Below are positions 12,422 to 56,556 of a DNA stretch of 64,000 nucleotides, in pieces. Each line of letters starts with the position of its first letter. The stretch's first letter is position 1. The DNA is from Beijerinckiaceae bacterium (lineage in GTDB: Bacteria > Pseudomonadota > Alphaproteobacteria > Rhizobiales > Beijerinckiaceae). The translations under genes were made by a program, and so were the position numbers. Location: the NCBI GenBank assembly GCA_009773635.1, contig WSYC01000006.1, positions 274,720 through 338,719 on the forward strand, read 5' to 3'. A model generated the notes under the pieces. That model had not been told where the DNA came from and searched no databases. It saw nothing but the letters and a program-made list of their open reading frames with translations.

Positions 12422-12880
12422 ATGAGCAGCGCACCCTTTGAAACATCCCAGCTCGGCAAGGCCTCCGCCCTGCCCGCTTCGCCCGAAGACGCCGTTCTTG
12501 ACCGGGTGCCGAACCCGCATCCGGGCACGGAGTACGTCGCGCGCTTCACCTGCCCGGAGTTCACCTCGATCTGCCCGGTGACCGGCCAGCCCGATTTCGG
12601 CATCCTCGTCATCGATTATGTGCCGGGTGACTGGCTCGTGGAATCCAAATCGCTGAAGCTCTATCTCGGCAGTTTCCGAAATCACGGCGCGTTCCACGAG
12701 GATTGCACGGTGGGCGTCGGCAAGAAGCTTGTGGACCTGCTGGAGCCGCGCTGGTTCCGCATCGGCGGCTACTGGTATCCGCGTGGCGGCATCCCGATCG
12801 ATGTCTTCTACCAGCACGGGGAATTGCCCAAGAACGTCTTCCTGCCGGATCAGGGCGTGCCGCCCTATCGCGGGCGGTAG
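12422..12880 (+). CDS. queF: NADPH-dependent 7-cyano-7-deazaguanine reductase QueF
   Basis: Reduces preQ0 to preQ1 in queuosine synthesis. At 152 residues it is the short, single-domain QueF type. The active-site segment [13 protein letters not shown] holds Cys51 (thioimide-forming) and Asp58, and the QueF motif [20 protein letters not shown] follows. A GGAG ribosome binding site lies 7-11 bp before the ATG at 12422. Two later enzymes of the pathway, tgt and queA, are about 42 kb away in this window. Confidence 0.96.
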
Positions 12881-12881
12881 A

Positions 12882-12946
12882 GCATTTTCAAGCGAAGTGG
12901 CTTCCGGTTCGCGTGAAGAACCGAAGGTCCGCGCTAGCGAAAATGC
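12882..12946. repeat. 65-bp palindromic repeat, intergenic copy of the 44-bp element with a 21-nt insertion
   Basis: Outer arms GCATTTTC and GAAAATGC enclose a centre (CGAAGTGGCTTCCGGTTCGC) matching that of the element inside soxD (47919-47962). Compared with the soxD copy, 21 extra nucleotides sit just before the right arm (44 + 21 = 65). It begins two bases after the queF stop, between convergent genes, so it may also serve as a terminator in both directions. Confidence 0.75.
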
Positions 12947-44374: not shown

Positions 44375-44938
44375 TCATCGTGCTTCGTTCATGGCAATCC
44401 GAAGGCTCGCCTCGAGATACGGCGCGAACGAGCGGCCGACCTCGATCCTGAACAGCCGGGGCTCCATCCGCCAGAGCACGATTTCGGCCTTGTGGAACAG
44501 CGTCCGCGTCGCCATTCCCACCGGAAAGGCAGGCAGCGAAAGATCGAGCGGGCAGCCGGCATTGAGAACATCGGCACCGTCCGGGCCTTCGAGAACGAAG
44601 CCGAGATGGCGATCCGAGATATCGACCAGCGCATGCGGAATATCAGTGCAAGCCGTTCCGATGGCCGCAAAGACCGCCTGTCCTTCACTCACCGGCGCGA
44701 TGAGCAGGAGTTCGTCCGGCCCAAGCCGCAGCGCAACGCGGCCGCCGGGCTTGCCCCGCTCACCCTTGCTGGCGGCGCGGTTGATCGCCTCGGGAAAGCC
44801 AAGGCCAAAGGCTTCGCCGGCCTTGGCTTCACCCATGGCATCCCCGCGAAAGACGAAGCGCGCCAAAGGCGGCGCGGAGCGCAGATACGGGGGCTCGGAG
44901 GCGGCGGTTTCATCCATCGTGGCGCGATCCTCAGCCAT
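44375..44938 (-). CDS. soxG: Sarcosine oxidase gamma subunit
   Basis: 187 residues from the ATG at 44938, which overlaps the 3' end of soxA by 8 bp. The family shows low conservation, but [40 protein letters not shown] and LNAGCPLDL match heterotetrameric sarcosine oxidase gamma chains. Structural subunit related to the GcvT fold. Last gene of soxBDAG. Confidence 0.9.
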
Positions 44939-47891
44939 TGAGCCGCTCTCCCTTGGGATCATGGAAGACCGGGGCGACAATGGTCGCTGCAATGGCCCCG
45001 GCGGGCATCGGGACGTACACGCTCTCGCCCATCCGCGCGCGGCCGTTGGCGATCACGGCCAGCGCGATGGAACGGTTGCAGGTCTCGCTCCAATAGGCGG
45101 AGGTGACATGGCCGAGCGCTGGTGTTCCGGCGGGTGGTGCCGGGCTGTCAGTGATCTGCGCGCCTTCCTCCAGCACGATTTTCGGATCGAGCGTCGCAAG
45201 GCCGACGAGCTGCTTGCGCCCTGCCGCGACAAGATCAGGCCGCATGAGCCCGCGCTTGCCGACGAAATCAGGCTTGGCCTTGCCGATGGCCCAGCCGAGG
45301 CCGACATCCTCCGGCGTCATGGTGCCGTCGGTCTCCTGACCGACGATGATATAGCCCTTTTCGGCGCGCAGCACGTGCATCGCCTCGGTGCCATAGGCCC
45401 CGCCGCCGTGCTTGAGCGCCTCGGCATACACCGCCTCCCAGACAGCACGACCCTGCCCCGCCGGTACGTTGATCTCAAAACCGAGTTCGCCTGAAAAACT
45501 GACCCGGAACAGCCGGGCGTCGATGCCGGCGATCCGGCCCGTCTTGACCGCCATATGCGGGAAGGCCTCCGGTGCAAGATCGATCCCCTCGACGAGCGGG
45601 CGCAGCGTGTCGCGCGCCCTCGGCCCCTGCACGGCGATCACGGCATAAGCTTCCGTGATCGAGGTCTGCCAAACCTTGAGATTCGGCCATTCGGTTTGCA
45701 GGTAATCCTCGATCATCGCGAAAACGCGCGCCGCGCCGCCGGTCGTGGTGGTGATGTGGAACCTGTCCGCCGCCTCTCCCCCTTTTTCTCGCCTGTTGCT
45801 CCGCAAAACCGGGTCCCAGTTTTGCGCAACAGGCTCCAGCCGCCCGATGACGCCGTCATCGATCACGAAGCCGGCCTCGTTGAGCAGGATGCCGTAGCGG
45901 CAGCGCCCGACCGCCAACCCCTTCCAGCTGTTGACGTAGAGCCGGTCGAGGAGTTCCGCCGCATCCGGGCCGACGAGCTCGATCTTGCCGAGTGTCGAGG
46001 CATCGAACAGGCCGACGGTCTCGCGCACCAGCTTGCACTCGCGGTTGACCGCCGCGTGCATATCCTCGCCGCTGCGCGCGAAGTAATGCGCGCGCTTCCA
46101 CTGGCCGACATCCTCGAAGGCCGCGCCCTGCGCGGCCGCCCATTCGTGGATCGGCGTCTTGCGGACCGGATCGAACAGCTCCCCGCGCGCCTGCCCGGCG
46201 AACAGGCCGAAGGTGACGGGCGTATACGGCTGGCGGAAGGTCGTGAGCCCAACCTCGGGGATAGATTTTCCGAGGGCATCGGCGACGATGCCGAGCGCGT
46301 TCATGTTCGAGGTCTTGCCCTGATCGGTCGCCATGCCGGTCGTGGTGAAGCGCTTGACGTGCTCGACTGAGCGGAACCCCTCACGTGTTGCCAGCCGGAT
46401 GTCGCGCGCGGTGACATCGTTCTGGAAATCGACGAAAGCCTTGACCTTCGCCGGATCGCCCGGCACCGGGCTCGCGCCGCTGAAGGTGCCGAGCATCTCG
46501 GTCGGAAAATCGCCTGCGCAGGCGCCGGCCGAGCGCACCGCCTGCCCCGGCGCGGTTGCGCCCGGGACATAGGCTTCAATCGTGTCGTTCCAATCCAGCT
46601 TGCCGCGCGACTGGGAGAAAAGATGCACCGAAGGTGTCCACCCGCCGGCCATCAACACGAGATCACAGGCGACGGGATCGGTTTCGCGCACCGAGCAATC
46701 CGATTGCAGCTTGCCCAGCCGAACGCGGTTCACCCGCAAGCGCCCCTCGGTTCCGACGAGAATCGTCGCGGTATGGACCGGAATGCCCGCCCCCAGCGCG
46801 TTGGCAGCCAAGGCCGGATCAGGCTTGGGGCGGGCATCAACGATGGCGGCAACCTCGACACCGGCCTCCTTCAGCGCGAGTGCCGCGCCATAGGCACTGT
46901 TGCAGGTGGTGAAGACGACTGCACGCGAGCCCGGCTTCACGCCATAGCGCCGGGCGTAGATTTCCGCTGCGCTCGCCAGCATGATGCCGGGGCGATCGTT
47001 GTCCGGGAAGGCGATCGGGCGTTCGATCGCCCCCGTCGCGAGCACGACCGCGCCGGCGCGCACCTGCCAGAGCCGCTCGCGCGGGGCTTTCGGCGGCAAG
47101 GTGCCGAGATGGTCGGTCAGCCGCTCCTGAAGCGCGACGAAATTCTGCGCGAAATAGCCGAAAGCCTGCGTGCGCGGCAGCAGCCGCACATTCGGCCGGA
47201 AGCGAAGCTGCTCCAGCGCTTCGGAAAGCCATTCGCCATCGCCATTGAGAAGCCAGCCGCCGAATTCGGCCTGCTCATCGCAGAGGATCACGCGCGCCTT
47301 GGGATCATCAGAGGCTTCGAGCGCCGCTTTCAACCCCGCTTCGCCGCCACCGATCACCAGCACCTCGCAATGCGCGAAGCGGCTGGCGTAGGTATCCGGG
47401 TCCGGCCCTTCCGGCGCCCTGCCGAGCCCGGCGGCGCGGCGGATGATCGGTTCGTAAAGCTTCGCCCAGGCCTTGTTGGAGCCAAGAAATTTCGGCCCCA
47501 TGAAGGTCTTGTAGTAGAAGCCCGCGCCCAGAAACGGCGCGGCGAGCGCGTTGATTTCGCCGATATCGAGCGCCAGCGACGGCCAGCGGTTCTGGCTCGT
47601 GGCGACGAGGCCCTCATAGAGTTCGACCTGCGTCGCGCGCAGGTTGGGCGTCGAGCGACCGCCCCCTCTCGAAACCGTCACCAGCGCGTTCGGTTCTTCT
47701 GCCCCTGCGGAAATCGGGCCGCGCGGCCGGTGATACTTGAACGAACGGCCCATCAAGTGAACGCCGTTCGCGAGCAGCGCCGAGGCCAGCGTATCACCGG
47801 CCAGCCCCTGCATGATCCGCCCGTCGAAGGTGAAGCTGATGCCTTTCGTGCGGTCGATCCGCCCGCCGGCAGGGGTGCGGAAGGCGCTCAC
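44931..47891 (-). CDS. soxA: Sarcosine oxidase alpha subunit
   Basis: 986 residues, starting at a GTG (47891) that overlaps the soxD stop (GTGA). Domains in order: ferredoxin-like Fer2_4 region (RPRGPISAGAEEPNALV, about 50-70), an NAD-binding flavin-type domain (VLVIGGGEAGLKAALEAS near 168), a SoxA_A3-type segment, and a C-terminal GcvT-like aminomethyltransferase domain that binds tetrahydrofolate. About 22 residues between GRL and ADRFH near 684-708 look inserted and include a 44-bp palindrome. The complex oxidises sarcosine to glycine, giving methylene-THF. Confidence 0.95.
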   Translation of the reverse strand: MSAFRTPAGGRIDRTKGISFTFDGRIMQGLAGDTLASALLANGVHLMGRSFKYHRPRGPISAGAEEPNALVTVSRGGGRSTPNLRATQVELYEGLVATSQNRWPSLALDIGEINALAAPFLGAGFYYKTFMGPKFLGSNKAWAKLYEPIIRRAAGLGRAPEGPDPDTYASRFAHCEVLVIGGGEAGLKAALEASDDPKARVILCDEQAEFGGWLLNGDGEWLSEALEQLRFRPNVRLLPRTQAFGYFAQNFVALQERLTDHLGTLPPKAPRERLWQVRAGAVVLATGAIERPIAFPDNDRPGIMLASAAEIYARRYGVKPGSRAVVFTTCNSAYGAALALKEAGVEVAAIVDARPKPDPALAANALGAGIPVHTATILVGTEGRLRVNRVRLGKLQSDCSVRETDPVACDLVLMAGGWTPSVHLFSQSRGKLDWNDTIEAYVPGATAPGQAVRSAGACAGDFPTEMLGTFSGASPVPGDPAKVKAFVDFQNDVTARDIRLATREGFRSVEHVKRFTTTGMATDQGKTSNMNALGIVADALGKSIPEVGLTTFRQPYTPVTFGLFAGQARGELFDPVRKTPIHEWAAAQGAAFEDVGQWKRAHYFARSGEDMHAAVNRECKLVRETVGLFDASTLGKIELVGPDAAELLDRLYVNSWKGLAVGRCRYGILLNEAGFVIDDGVIGRLEPVAQNWDPVLRSNRREKGGEAADRFHITTTTGGAARVFAMIEDYLQTEWPNLKVWQTSITEAYAVIAVQGPRARDTLRPLVEGIDLAPEAFPHMAVKTGRIAGIDARLFRVSFSGELGFEINVPAGQGRAVWEAVYAEALKHGGGAYGTEAMHVLRAEKGYIIVGQETDGTMTPEDVGLGWAIGKAKPDFVGKRGLMRPDLVAAGRKQLVGLATLDPKIVLEEGAQITDSPAPPAGTPALGHVTSAYWSETCNRSIALAVIANGRARMGESVYVPMPAGAIAATIVAPVFHDPKGERLNG
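45791..45834. repeat. 44-bp palindromic element inside soxA
   Basis: Arms GCCTGTTGC and GCAACAGGC with an inner CGCAAAACCGGG/CCCAGTTTTGCG pair. Encodes about residues 687-700 of SoxA (PVAQNWDPVLRSNR) in frame. Same length and same AACCGGKTNCCASTT centre as the copies in soxD and queA, but read in a different phase. Confidence 0.85.
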
Positions 47892-48241
47892 AGGGCTGTC
47901 TCCGCTTGTTTCCCTGTCGCATTCGCTTCACGCGAACCGGGTGCCACTTCGCTTGCGAATGCTTCCGTCTCAGGCGGGGCCTCGCCGGCCTTGTAGGTCG
48001 TCACGAAATCATCGCTCACGGTGTTTCGGATCGCGTTGAAGAAGCGCCCGCAGCCGTGCGCGTGCCGCCAGCGTTCGGCGATGATGCCCTTCGGATTGTC
48101 GCGCAGATAGAGGAATGCCGCCCATTCAGCATCGCTGGTCGTGGCGGGATCGAGTGGGCGTGCGATATGCGCAGCACCGGCGTTACGGAACTCCGTCTCC
48201 GGGCGCTTCATATTGCAATAGGGACAATGAATCAGTAACAT
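47888..48241 (-). CDS. soxD: Sarcosine oxidase delta subunit
   Basis: 117 residues. N-terminal HCPYCNMKRPETEF and later HAHGCGRFFNAIRNT provide the Cys/His zinc ligands of SoxD. The C-terminal tail from about residue 94 (AFASEVAPGSREANATGK) is encoded by a 44-bp palindromic element and looks like an addition to the family core. Follows soxB by 11 bp and overlaps soxA (GTGA). Confidence 0.93.
   Translation of the reverse strand: MLLIHCPYCNMKRPETEFRNAGAAHIARPLDPATTSDAEWAAFLYLRDNPKGIIAERWRHAHGCGRFFNAIRNTVSDDFVTTYKAGEAPPETEAFASEVAPGSREANATGKQAETAL
47919..47962. repeat. 44-bp palindromic element at the 3' end of soxD
   Basis: Arms GCATTCGC and GCGAATGC, centre CGAACCGGGTGCCACTTCGC. In frame, encoding residues 94-108 of SoxD. 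Closest relative in the window is the intergenic copy at 12882-12946 (reverse orientation). Confidence 0.9.
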
Positions 48242-55402: not shown

Positions 55403-56556
55403 GGTGCCTCGGGAAACAGCAGCGAACCATCGCCGTAGGAATAGAAGCGATAGCCGTTTTCAATCGCGTGGCGATAGGCGCAGCGCATTGTTTCCACTCC
55501 GGCGAAGGCAGAAACCAGCATCAGCAACGTCGATTTCGGCAGGTGAAAATTGGTAATCAGCGCATCCGTCACCCGGAAACGATAGCCGGGGCGGATGAAA
55601 ATCTCGGTCTCGCCGGCAAACGGCGCGATCTCGCCTGAAAGGGCTGGTTCCTCCATTGACGCTTGCGCGAACGCAGAACCGGTTACCACTTCTGCTGCGC
55701 AAGCTGCGCTTTCAATCAGCCGGCACGCGGTCGTGCCGACCGCGATAACCCGCCCGCCCCGCGCCCGCGCCTCACGGATACGGGCTGCGGCTTCGGCACT
55801 CACCTCGCCCCATTCGGCGTGCATCTTGTGCTCGTCGAGGTTCTCGACCTTCACCGGCAGGAACGTCCCCGCCCCGACGTGCAGCGTGACGAACACATGC
55901 TCAACCCCGCGCGCCGTGAGGCGCTCCAGCAGCGCCGGCGTGAAGTGCAGCGAGGCGGTGGGGGCGGCAACGGCACCATCGCGGGCGGCGAAGATCGTCT
56001 GGTAATCACCTGCATCCTGCGCGGCGGCAATATCGCCTGCGCGTTTGCGGGCCTCAAGGATATAGGGCGGCAGCGGCATGCCGCCGACGAGCGCGATCGC
56101 TTCATCGAGAAACGCGCCGGTGCGATCGAAGCGGATGGTGACGACGCCCTCCTCGCCCTTGGCGAGAATCGTGCCGGTGAGCGTATCCGCCGCGCAGGCC
56201 GGATTATGCCCACCAAAACGCAGGGTATCGCCGGGCTTGAGGCGTTTGCCGGGCTTGGCGAAGGCGTCCCAGGTGGCCTCATCGCGCCGCTTGATGAGAA
56301 GGGCCTCGATGGCAACGCGGTTGTCATCGCGGATTCGTTCGCCCAGCAGCCGCGCCGGGATGACTTTCGTGTCGTTGAACACGAGGAGATCGCCGGGCGA
56401 GAGTTGATCCGCGAGCGCGGAAAACACCGAATCCGCGAGTTCCGCGCCCGGCTTCACCACCAGCATGCGTGCGGAATCGCGCGGGGTCGCGGGGTGCAGC
56501 GCGATCCGCTCCTCCGGCAGGGTGAAATCGAAATCCGAAAGTTTCATGGCGCTCAT
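55399..56556 (-). CDS. queA: S-adenosylmethionine:tRNA ribosyltransferase-isomerase
   Basis: 385 residues from an ATG at 56556 that overlaps the acyltransferase stop (ATGA); MKLSDFDF at 56547 is the alternative start three codons later. Motifs: [43 protein letters not shown] and [13 protein letters not shown]. Between LIESAA and [13 protein letters not shown] there are about 22 extra residues encoded in part by a 44-bp palindrome. Makes epoxyqueuosine on tRNA; operon with tgt. Confidence 0.95.
55661..55704. repeat. 44-bp palindromic element inside queA
   Basis: Arms GCTTGCGC and GCGCAAGC, centre GCAGAACCGGTTACCACTTCTGC. In frame, encoding about residues 285-299 ([14 protein letters not shown]). 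Read in the same phase as the soxD copy, giving a similar peptide (EV..GS). Confidence 0.9.

Follow-up and report, generated by a model that had tools for sequence, protein, structure and literature searches.

The genes for the alpha and delta subunits of sarcosine oxidase (soxA and soxD) and for the tRNA ribosyltransferase-isomerase QueA are located on the minus strand of a 64,000-nucleotide stretch of DNA from a Beijerinckiaceae bacterium (contig WSYC01000006.1, positions 274,720 to 338,719), which is referred to here as the window. In the original prediction, made from the letters of the window, three 44-bp palindromes with a shared centre and differing, self-complementary arms were described inside these genes and a fourth copy was placed between genes; all four were found (Table 1). 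The window palindromes are copies of an element of about 60-63 bp, which consists of a T-rich stretch followed by a 44-bp hairpin with the core AACCGGnnnCCACTT. The predicted length of 44 bp applies to the hairpin, whereas the repeated unit is larger: when 92 copies from the genome were aligned on the core, the conserved columns ran from about -32 to +30 and covered the T-rich stretch, the hairpin and a short tail. Likewise, the placement inside genes stands for soxA and queA, but the soxD copy is a C-terminal extension. We consider it likely that this is a mobile or formerly mobile palindromic element, some copies of which are tolerated in frame within genes.

Table 1. Copies of the element and the genes that carry them, with positions in the window.
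Feature	Position	Strand	Hairpin or core	Covariance-model match	Remarks
Element in soxA	45775..45837	+ (gene on -)	hairpin 45791-45834	G000:C6:320494-320556	T-rich stretch on the low-coordinate side
soxA, sarcosine oxidase alpha subunit	44931..47891	-			open reading frame; Pfam GCV_T and SO_alpha_A3; insert in the GcvT-like part, read LEPVAQNWDPVLRSNRREKGGE
Element at the 3' end of soxD	47903..47965	+	hairpin 47919-47962	G000:C6:322622-322684	read AFASEVAPGSREANATGKQ
soxD, sarcosine oxidase delta subunit, with the element as an extension	47888..48211	-			Pfam SoxD PF04267 on 47891-48211
Element in queA	55645..55707	+	hairpin 55661-55704	G000:C6:330364-330426
queA, tRNA ribosyltransferase-isomerase, with insert	55460..56556	-			Pfam Queuosine_synth; relatives
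Intergenic copy, extra stretch in the left arm	12879..12946	-	core 12895-12909	G000:C6:287598-287665

The source of the window is a 3.24-Mb genome in 35 contigs (G+C 63.5% in the stretches read); judged by sequence, the closest named relatives of its SoxA and the plasmid matches belong mostly to the Hyphomicrobiales. The core pattern with at most two mismatches occurred four times in the window against 0.40 expected, a count that 0 of 100 shuffles reached. Genome-wide, the pattern AACCGGNNNCCANTT with at most one mismatch gave 157 matches compared with 21 for the reversed control, and 92 distinct copies with the exact core were obtained. A genome-wide scan for further copies with covarying arms had been proposed as a check of the prediction, and it returned them: a covariance model built from 70 of the 92 copies found at least 116 copies at E <= 0.01, with covarying arms. 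This number is a lower bound, because 150 of the 1,297 candidates were scored. The other 22 of the 92 copies were outside the first covariation set, and four of these (L010, L030, L046 and L067) contain additional sequence in one of their arms.

The consensus structure comprises 15 base pairs in two helices and a 3-nt loop. Across the 70 copies and 15 pairs, 93.8% of the cells are paired, compared with 73.0% in shuffled alignments; two-sided changes were seen in 199 cells (53.4 when shuffled, with 0 of 500 shuffles as high), 11 of the 15 pairs changed on both sides (8.9 when shuffled, with 17 of 500 as high), and none of the slid registers came close to the pairing of the true one. With all 92 copies aligned ungapped, 88.9% of the cells pair (71.8% when shuffled) and 203 two-sided changes occur (56.4 when shuffled), values reached in 0 of 300 shuffles. 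Two stem positions pair in just 0 and 1 of the 92 copies. Most core positions were fixed by the search pattern; the single pattern-free position, which is independent evidence, holds C in 90 of the 92 copies where G would pair. The core AACCGGnnnCCACTT describes the copies that were found through it, and weaker copies vary, some of them (L373, L381) showing the flipped inner pair of the core AACCGCnnnGCACTT. Chance palindromes were rejected based on the excess over shuffles in the window, the excess over the reversed control in the genome and the covariation of the arms. It had been concluded earlier from this covariation that the folded form is what persists; what it shows is that most of the pairing has been retained, a pattern predicted both by selection on the fold and by template-directed correction of the arms.

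No match above the gathering score was found among 4227 Rfam families compared with 12 loci. The soxA copy (45780-45844) resembles RF02600, the Brucella small RNA (sRNA) CI27, weakly (21.6 bits against a cut-off of 59.8), and such sRNA families may contain repeats of this kind. Arrays of the element also occur: four copies arranged head to tail with a period of 60 bp (L055:1469-1711) are located just beyond the end of a pyruvate kinase gene, a position for which this array, with its weak in-gene score, was rejected as an in-gene copy, and an array with a period of 58 bp was seen in the relative G006 (L255, L282).

Empty sites in relatives were found for several in-gene copies. In SoxA, a gap of exactly 63 bp is present in 13 of 13 same-genus genes aligned, with edges that are ambiguous by about 2 bp, so the gain is 21 residues and not the roughly 14 residues plus flanks that had been estimated; the same 21-residue gap separates SoxA from the solved homologues 1vrq_A and 2gag_A, in which the insert is absent. 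In QueA, 19-20 residues are missing in all 29 relatives aligned (39 genomes with a match, 30 loci used), and comparison with 1vky_A leaves residues 287-310 unmatched. The C-terminal segment of SoxD, a tail that is variable in general, is absent in 16 of 16 relatives aligned. A 20-residue insert in seryl-tRNA synthetase (SerRS, encoded by serS) is shared by this genome, G004 and G010, and is missing in nine of the 12 genus members aligned and in all eight other sequences of the order aligned; G008, one of the nine, has a different short insert nearby. The carbon-nitrogen hydrolase insert occurs in this genome and in G006, and 20 of the 21 others aligned have no insert of such size. Against solved homologues, clean gaps were obtained for SoxA, SerRS and diaminopropionate ammonia-lyase, the last being a sixth in-gene copy. 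A shorter extra stretch at the insert site in the G009 carbon-nitrogen hydrolase (L395) is possibly a partly deleted copy, and SerRS of this genus has a second, highly variable insertion between its N-terminal half and the catalytic core (L013/L423, residues about 247-293), which reaches about 100 residues in G008 and is nearly absent in most other order members aligned.

These alignments bear on the possibility that the residues are ancestral protein loops, palindromic by accident. The carbon-nitrogen hydrolase insert is common to one other species and the SerRS insert to two, which speaks for this possibility. However, orthologues carrying the residues throughout, which had been named as the outcome that would speak against the prediction, were not what was found: the residues are lacking in every aligned relative of SoxA, QueA and SoxD, and this DNA is found again in unrelated genes as well as between genes. 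Ancestral loops were therefore rejected for soxA, soxD and queA, and the explanation as a whole is extremely improbable.

Based on a frame-wise coding score, 16 of the 92 copies are inside genes and most are between genes. Twelve of the 16 are read in frame -1, and one each in frames -0, -2, +0 and +1. The soxD copy, which is too near the stop codon for the score, is also in frame -1 according to its peptide, so that 13 of 17 in-gene copies use this one of the six frames, which reads A[FK]SSEVxxGSRExxAS. The expected share of frame -1, derived from the stop-free frames in the other 74 copies, is 18.8% (p = 1.7e-6 for 12 of 16 and 4.1e-7 for 13 of 17). SoxA had been predicted to be read in a different phase from soxD and queA; this is right, and it is SoxA that is the exception, since soxD and queA use the frame of the majority. 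From the genetic code and the core it follows that in frame -1 the 3-nt loop is read as part of the codons GNN and NCC, and no stop codon fits either pattern. Among stop-free frames, average hydropathy is 0.03 to 0.16 on the plus strand and -0.97 to -1.14 on the minus strand, and this difference may explain the choice of strand. Judged from their translations, about 17 copies in frame within genes appear to add a similar short hydrophilic stretch to unrelated proteins.

The host genes encode conserved enzymes according to Pfam, namely a protein kinase with Usp, the exonuclease VII large subunit (xseA), an FAD-binding protein, a thiamine pyrophosphate (TPP) enzyme, SerRS, AIG2/GGACT, topoisomerase I (topA), a pyridoxal phosphate-dependent enzyme, a semialdehyde dehydrogenase, ferrochelatase, a LUD-domain protein, a carbon-nitrogen hydrolase, an amidase, XdhC, SoxD, SoxA and QueA. 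When random stretches of the window were scored in this way, 406 of 600 were inside genes, compared with 16 of the 92 copies, so genes are either avoided by the element or cleared of its copies. The arm class GCAAAATC/GCGAAATC was found in five of 18 in-gene rows, with both L082 copies taken as in-gene, compared with one of the 74 others (Fisher p = 0.0009).

The distribution between genes and the predicted folding raise the possibility that the element is kept for a role of its RNA hairpin in transcripts, in stability or processing as proposed for repetitive extragenic palindromes (REPs), and that in-gene copies are rare accidents. The intergenic copies lie between co-directional (41), convergent (25) or divergent (4) genes, the 70 classed copies wrongly including that of queA. 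The motif is opposite to the co-directional genes in 28 of the 41 cases, so that the better-folding strand is transcribed. For the soxA, soxD and queA copies, fold z-scores are -4.62, -2.47 and -4.42 as single-stranded DNA and -5.49, -3.89 and -4.41 as RNA of the mRNA strand, and the latter values favour a transcript role. On the other hand, copy numbers that range between 1 and 245 in the 17 genus members are hard to fit to an essential function, the T-rich stretch lies ahead of the hairpin and is thus on the wrong side for an intrinsic terminator, and the common frame inside genes is left unexplained. Such a role is conceivable, but we would not expect it to be the explanation.

Changes at orthologous sites were examined with pairs chosen by a fixed rule and without a pairing filter, which gave 10 cross-species pairs with matching position and flanks 66-88% identical. 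In total, 16 base pairs had changed on both sides, two had become G:U and seven were lost. The inner stem accounted for 62 unchanged pairs and eight two-sided changes, with none lost; in the outer arms of the eight pairs of copies that share a register (union of helices), 60 base pairs were unchanged, eight had changed on both sides and two had become G:U. The carbon-nitrogen hydrolase copy, compared between this genome and G006, showed four two-sided changes and one loss. A hand-picked comparison of 13 pairs from 49 rows (21 two-sided changes, two to G:U, none lost) was withdrawn, because its count was restricted to positions paired in both copies, which had been prefiltered for three inner pairs, and it was therefore blind to losses in the outer arms.

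The arms may have been copied from each other by template switching within the hairpin (quasi-palindrome correction), or by conversion between copies, in which case the covariation would be a mutational signature and not the result of selection. Two of the 10 orthologous pairs (L022/L292 and L256/L344) have their arms in a different register altogether, and the loops differ at 18 of 30 positions although the flanks are 66-88% identical; both observations point in this direction. Against it, the core mismatch is left uncorrected, with C in 90 of 92 copies at the pattern-free position, and the arms of the serS copy are identical in three species while the flanks and the loops (TCC, ATA and AGG) differ. 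This explanation is accordingly possible but somewhat doubtful. G004 and G010 are sisters, this genome is on a separate branch and other lineages between them have no serS insert; this pattern may have arisen by transfer of a serS segment, by reuse of the site or by repeated loss. The arm changes at orthologous sites could owe something to each of several processes, namely selection on the fold, template-directed correction, and conversion or re-insertion.

The element family is widespread in Alphaproteobacteria. The core is present in all 17 genomes of the genus, with 1 to 245 copies compared with control counts of 0 to 2. In a sample of the class, 85 of 385 genomes had at least one match, isolated matches being about as common as control matches, and high counts were obtained in other families (240 in G409, and 61, 56 and 41 copies, where the controls gave 0 to 3). 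Rhizobial genomes commonly contain repeats of this kind. Copies on Bradyrhizobium plasmids are 92% identical over 63 bp, and L381, a related variant from this genome, matched 401 plasmid records, 324 of them from Rhizobium and most from Rhizobium and Sinorhizobium. Plasmid copies at a Xanthobacter helicase gene (H22) and a Chelatococcus dioxygenase gene (H27) were rejected as intragenic, as they adjoin gene ends instead. As further observations, G409 (L224-L253), which belongs to another family of Alphaproteobacteria, is an incomplete genome of 1.9 Mb, in which the 240 copies have the exact core and some form 63-bp tandem pairs. In G004 (L342-L369), a species-specific subfamily is frequent, with the arms GCATGC, the inner stem GTGAAA/TTTCAC and, in most cases, the loop ATT; there are also recurrent pairs of copies at a distance of about 100-103 bp.

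Rickettsia palindromic elements (RPEs), which have counterparts in Wolbachia, are palindromic repeats with intergenic copies and in-frame copies in conserved enzymes (PMC2229807, PMC10969869), and RPE-4 of R. japonica resides in both queA and a putative aminomethyltransferase gene (PMC3767692). The element described here resembles RPEs in its in-frame insertion in conserved protein genes and its absence from relatives, and RPE-4 in the kinds of host, QueA and the GcvT-like part of SoxA (Table 1). It differs in its unit of about 60-63 bp with a fixed core, compared with about 100-150 bp, a comparison made by description; in-gene RPEs in the R. japonica table are 68 to 192 bp long among the rows seen (PMC3767692). 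The likeness to RPEs drawn in the original prediction is apt as a way of working, but intragenic small palindromes are not confined to Rickettsia: intragenic REPs were reported in several species (PMC3733652).

GTAG and CGTC REPs are small palindromes located mostly between co-directional or convergent genes, with some intragenic copies, and the CGTC repeats are mostly alphaproteobacterial and apparently without transposase (PMC3733652). The inserts could be regarded as REPs moved by a Y1 transposase (REP-associated tyrosine transposase, RAYT), since they too are hairpins with a stem mismatch, lie mostly between co-directional or convergent genes and are sometimes in frame (PMC3733652). However, none of the 17 genus genomes gave a match to PF01797, compared with five positive genomes among 14 controls, and in the 92-copy consensus the foot of the stem bears neither a GTAG nor a CGTC tag. 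CGTC REPs have stems of 8-9 bp, loops of 4-5 nt and a CCA-type tail (PMC3733652), whereas the element here forms 15 consensus pairs divided between two helices, has a loop of 3 nt and carries both a conserved core and a T-rich stretch. Movement of such REPs by RAYT is thus very improbable.

Among palindromic repeats of the Hyphomicrobiales, RIME (Osteras et al. 1995; RIME and other repeats are cited in PMC1273637 and PMC2873474) and Bru-RS of Brucella (PMC2267715, PMC2266754) are comparable on the basis of their descriptions; Bru-RS is listed as 103-105 bp long and intergenic (PMC2267715). Br-REP1 and Br-REP2 of Bradyrhizobium are also palindromic repeats of a Hyphomicrobiales genus, but their printed consensus does not contain the core found here and they were described as intergenic in the available part of the paper (PMC5082802). 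The statement that the order has no named equivalent needs a distinction: in-frame residence was not found in print, whereas the element family itself is widespread. In the open-licence literature, outside which most subscription journals lie, no account was found of such an element being carried in frame by Hyphomicrobiales genes. In-frame palindromes are already known from Rickettsia and from other REPs, and this family is a further variant.

Taken with the empty sites and the copy number, from which mobility was inferred because neither a transposase nor a clear target-site duplication was seen, the data are best accounted for by a mobile or formerly mobile element of about 60-63 bp with some copies tolerated in frame. 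The outer arms vary freely around the core while mostly staying complementary. To survive inside a gene, a copy would need a length that is a multiple of three, no stop codon and a harmless peptide, and the frame reading A[FK]SSEVxxGSRExxAS seems to satisfy these needs best; the use of one frame by 13 of the 17 in-gene copies would then reflect that this frame and orientation are best tolerated. Insertion sites are probably turns on the protein surface. A machinery acting in trans, which would recognise both hairpin and core and is other than a detectable Y1/RAYT transposase, may spread the copies, and the inserts in proteins are most likely near-neutral passengers.

Several observations weigh against tolerated insertion of a mobile element. 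The search for a transposase gave none, and at soxA a target-site duplication, the flanking feature of miniature inverted-repeat transposable elements (MITEs), is not visible beyond about 2 bp; the net gain there is exactly 63 bp with at most about 2 bp ambiguous, and the SoxA proteins compared are about 57-79% identical. An aligned empty site in relatives is at hand for five of the 17 in-gene copies (soxA, soxD, queA, serS and the carbon-nitrogen hydrolase gene), and six in-gene calls (L001, L005, L007, L024, L057 and L082) were made from the coding score and Pfam alone. L082, located at the end of a gene, would encode a hydrophobic peptide and may lack translation. In comparisons with solved homologues, TopA and ferrochelatase gave diffuse gaps, the insert of the amidase AmpD lies between two matched stretches of the alignment, the alignment of the TPP enzyme begins where its insert ends, and the ArgC-like protein showed no clean gap. 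Hydropathy is no guide to the frame, as frames -0 and -2 are as hydrophilic as frame -1. Among relatives, scored with the codon table of this genome, five of 123 copies were flagged as in-gene and two of these are in frame -1 (flagged copies were two of 50 in G006, where all 50 were examined, two of 17 in G005, from a total of 28, none of 31 in G004, from a total of 245, and one of 25 at other loci of the genus; none of 29 was flagged in G409). Because the relatives gave so few in-gene copies, the frame bias is based on one genome and on the serS insert of G004 and G010, which is also in frame -1. All seven losses at orthologous sites concern outer-arm pairs, lost in one species within the eight same-register pairs. 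Finally, tandem spacing is 58, 59, 60 or 63 bp (63 bp in G409, of another family, with four pairs read, and in one pair of G004; 58-60 bp in G006 and this genome), so the unit length is not always a multiple of three.

A stronger version would be that the element is adapted to life inside genes, with a unit that is often divisible by three, one strand that encodes a soluble linker in one frame and a freely varying loop in stop-proof codons, and that its hairpins are renewed in place by hairpin-dependent copying, seen as exchanged arms and renewed loops at orthologous sites. A selfish form of DNA would then persist through protein-coding sequence without a classical transposase. We regard this as unlikely, an estimate that was lowered because of the seven lost pairs and the 58-60 bp tandem spacings.

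If the interpretation of the in-gene copies as tolerated insertions of a mobile or formerly mobile element is true, protein-coding palindromes, which are best known from the obligate intracellular Rickettsia and Wolbachia, extend to the 3.2-Mb genome of a Hyphomicrobiales bacterium, with empty sites in many relatives. An old question would thereby become testable, namely how small palindromes spread and survive in conserved genes and whether the added peptide has any effect. The bias to one frame and the arm changes at orthologous sites provide two quantitative handles on it, which were not seen for Rickettsia RPEs in the available parts of the papers cited.

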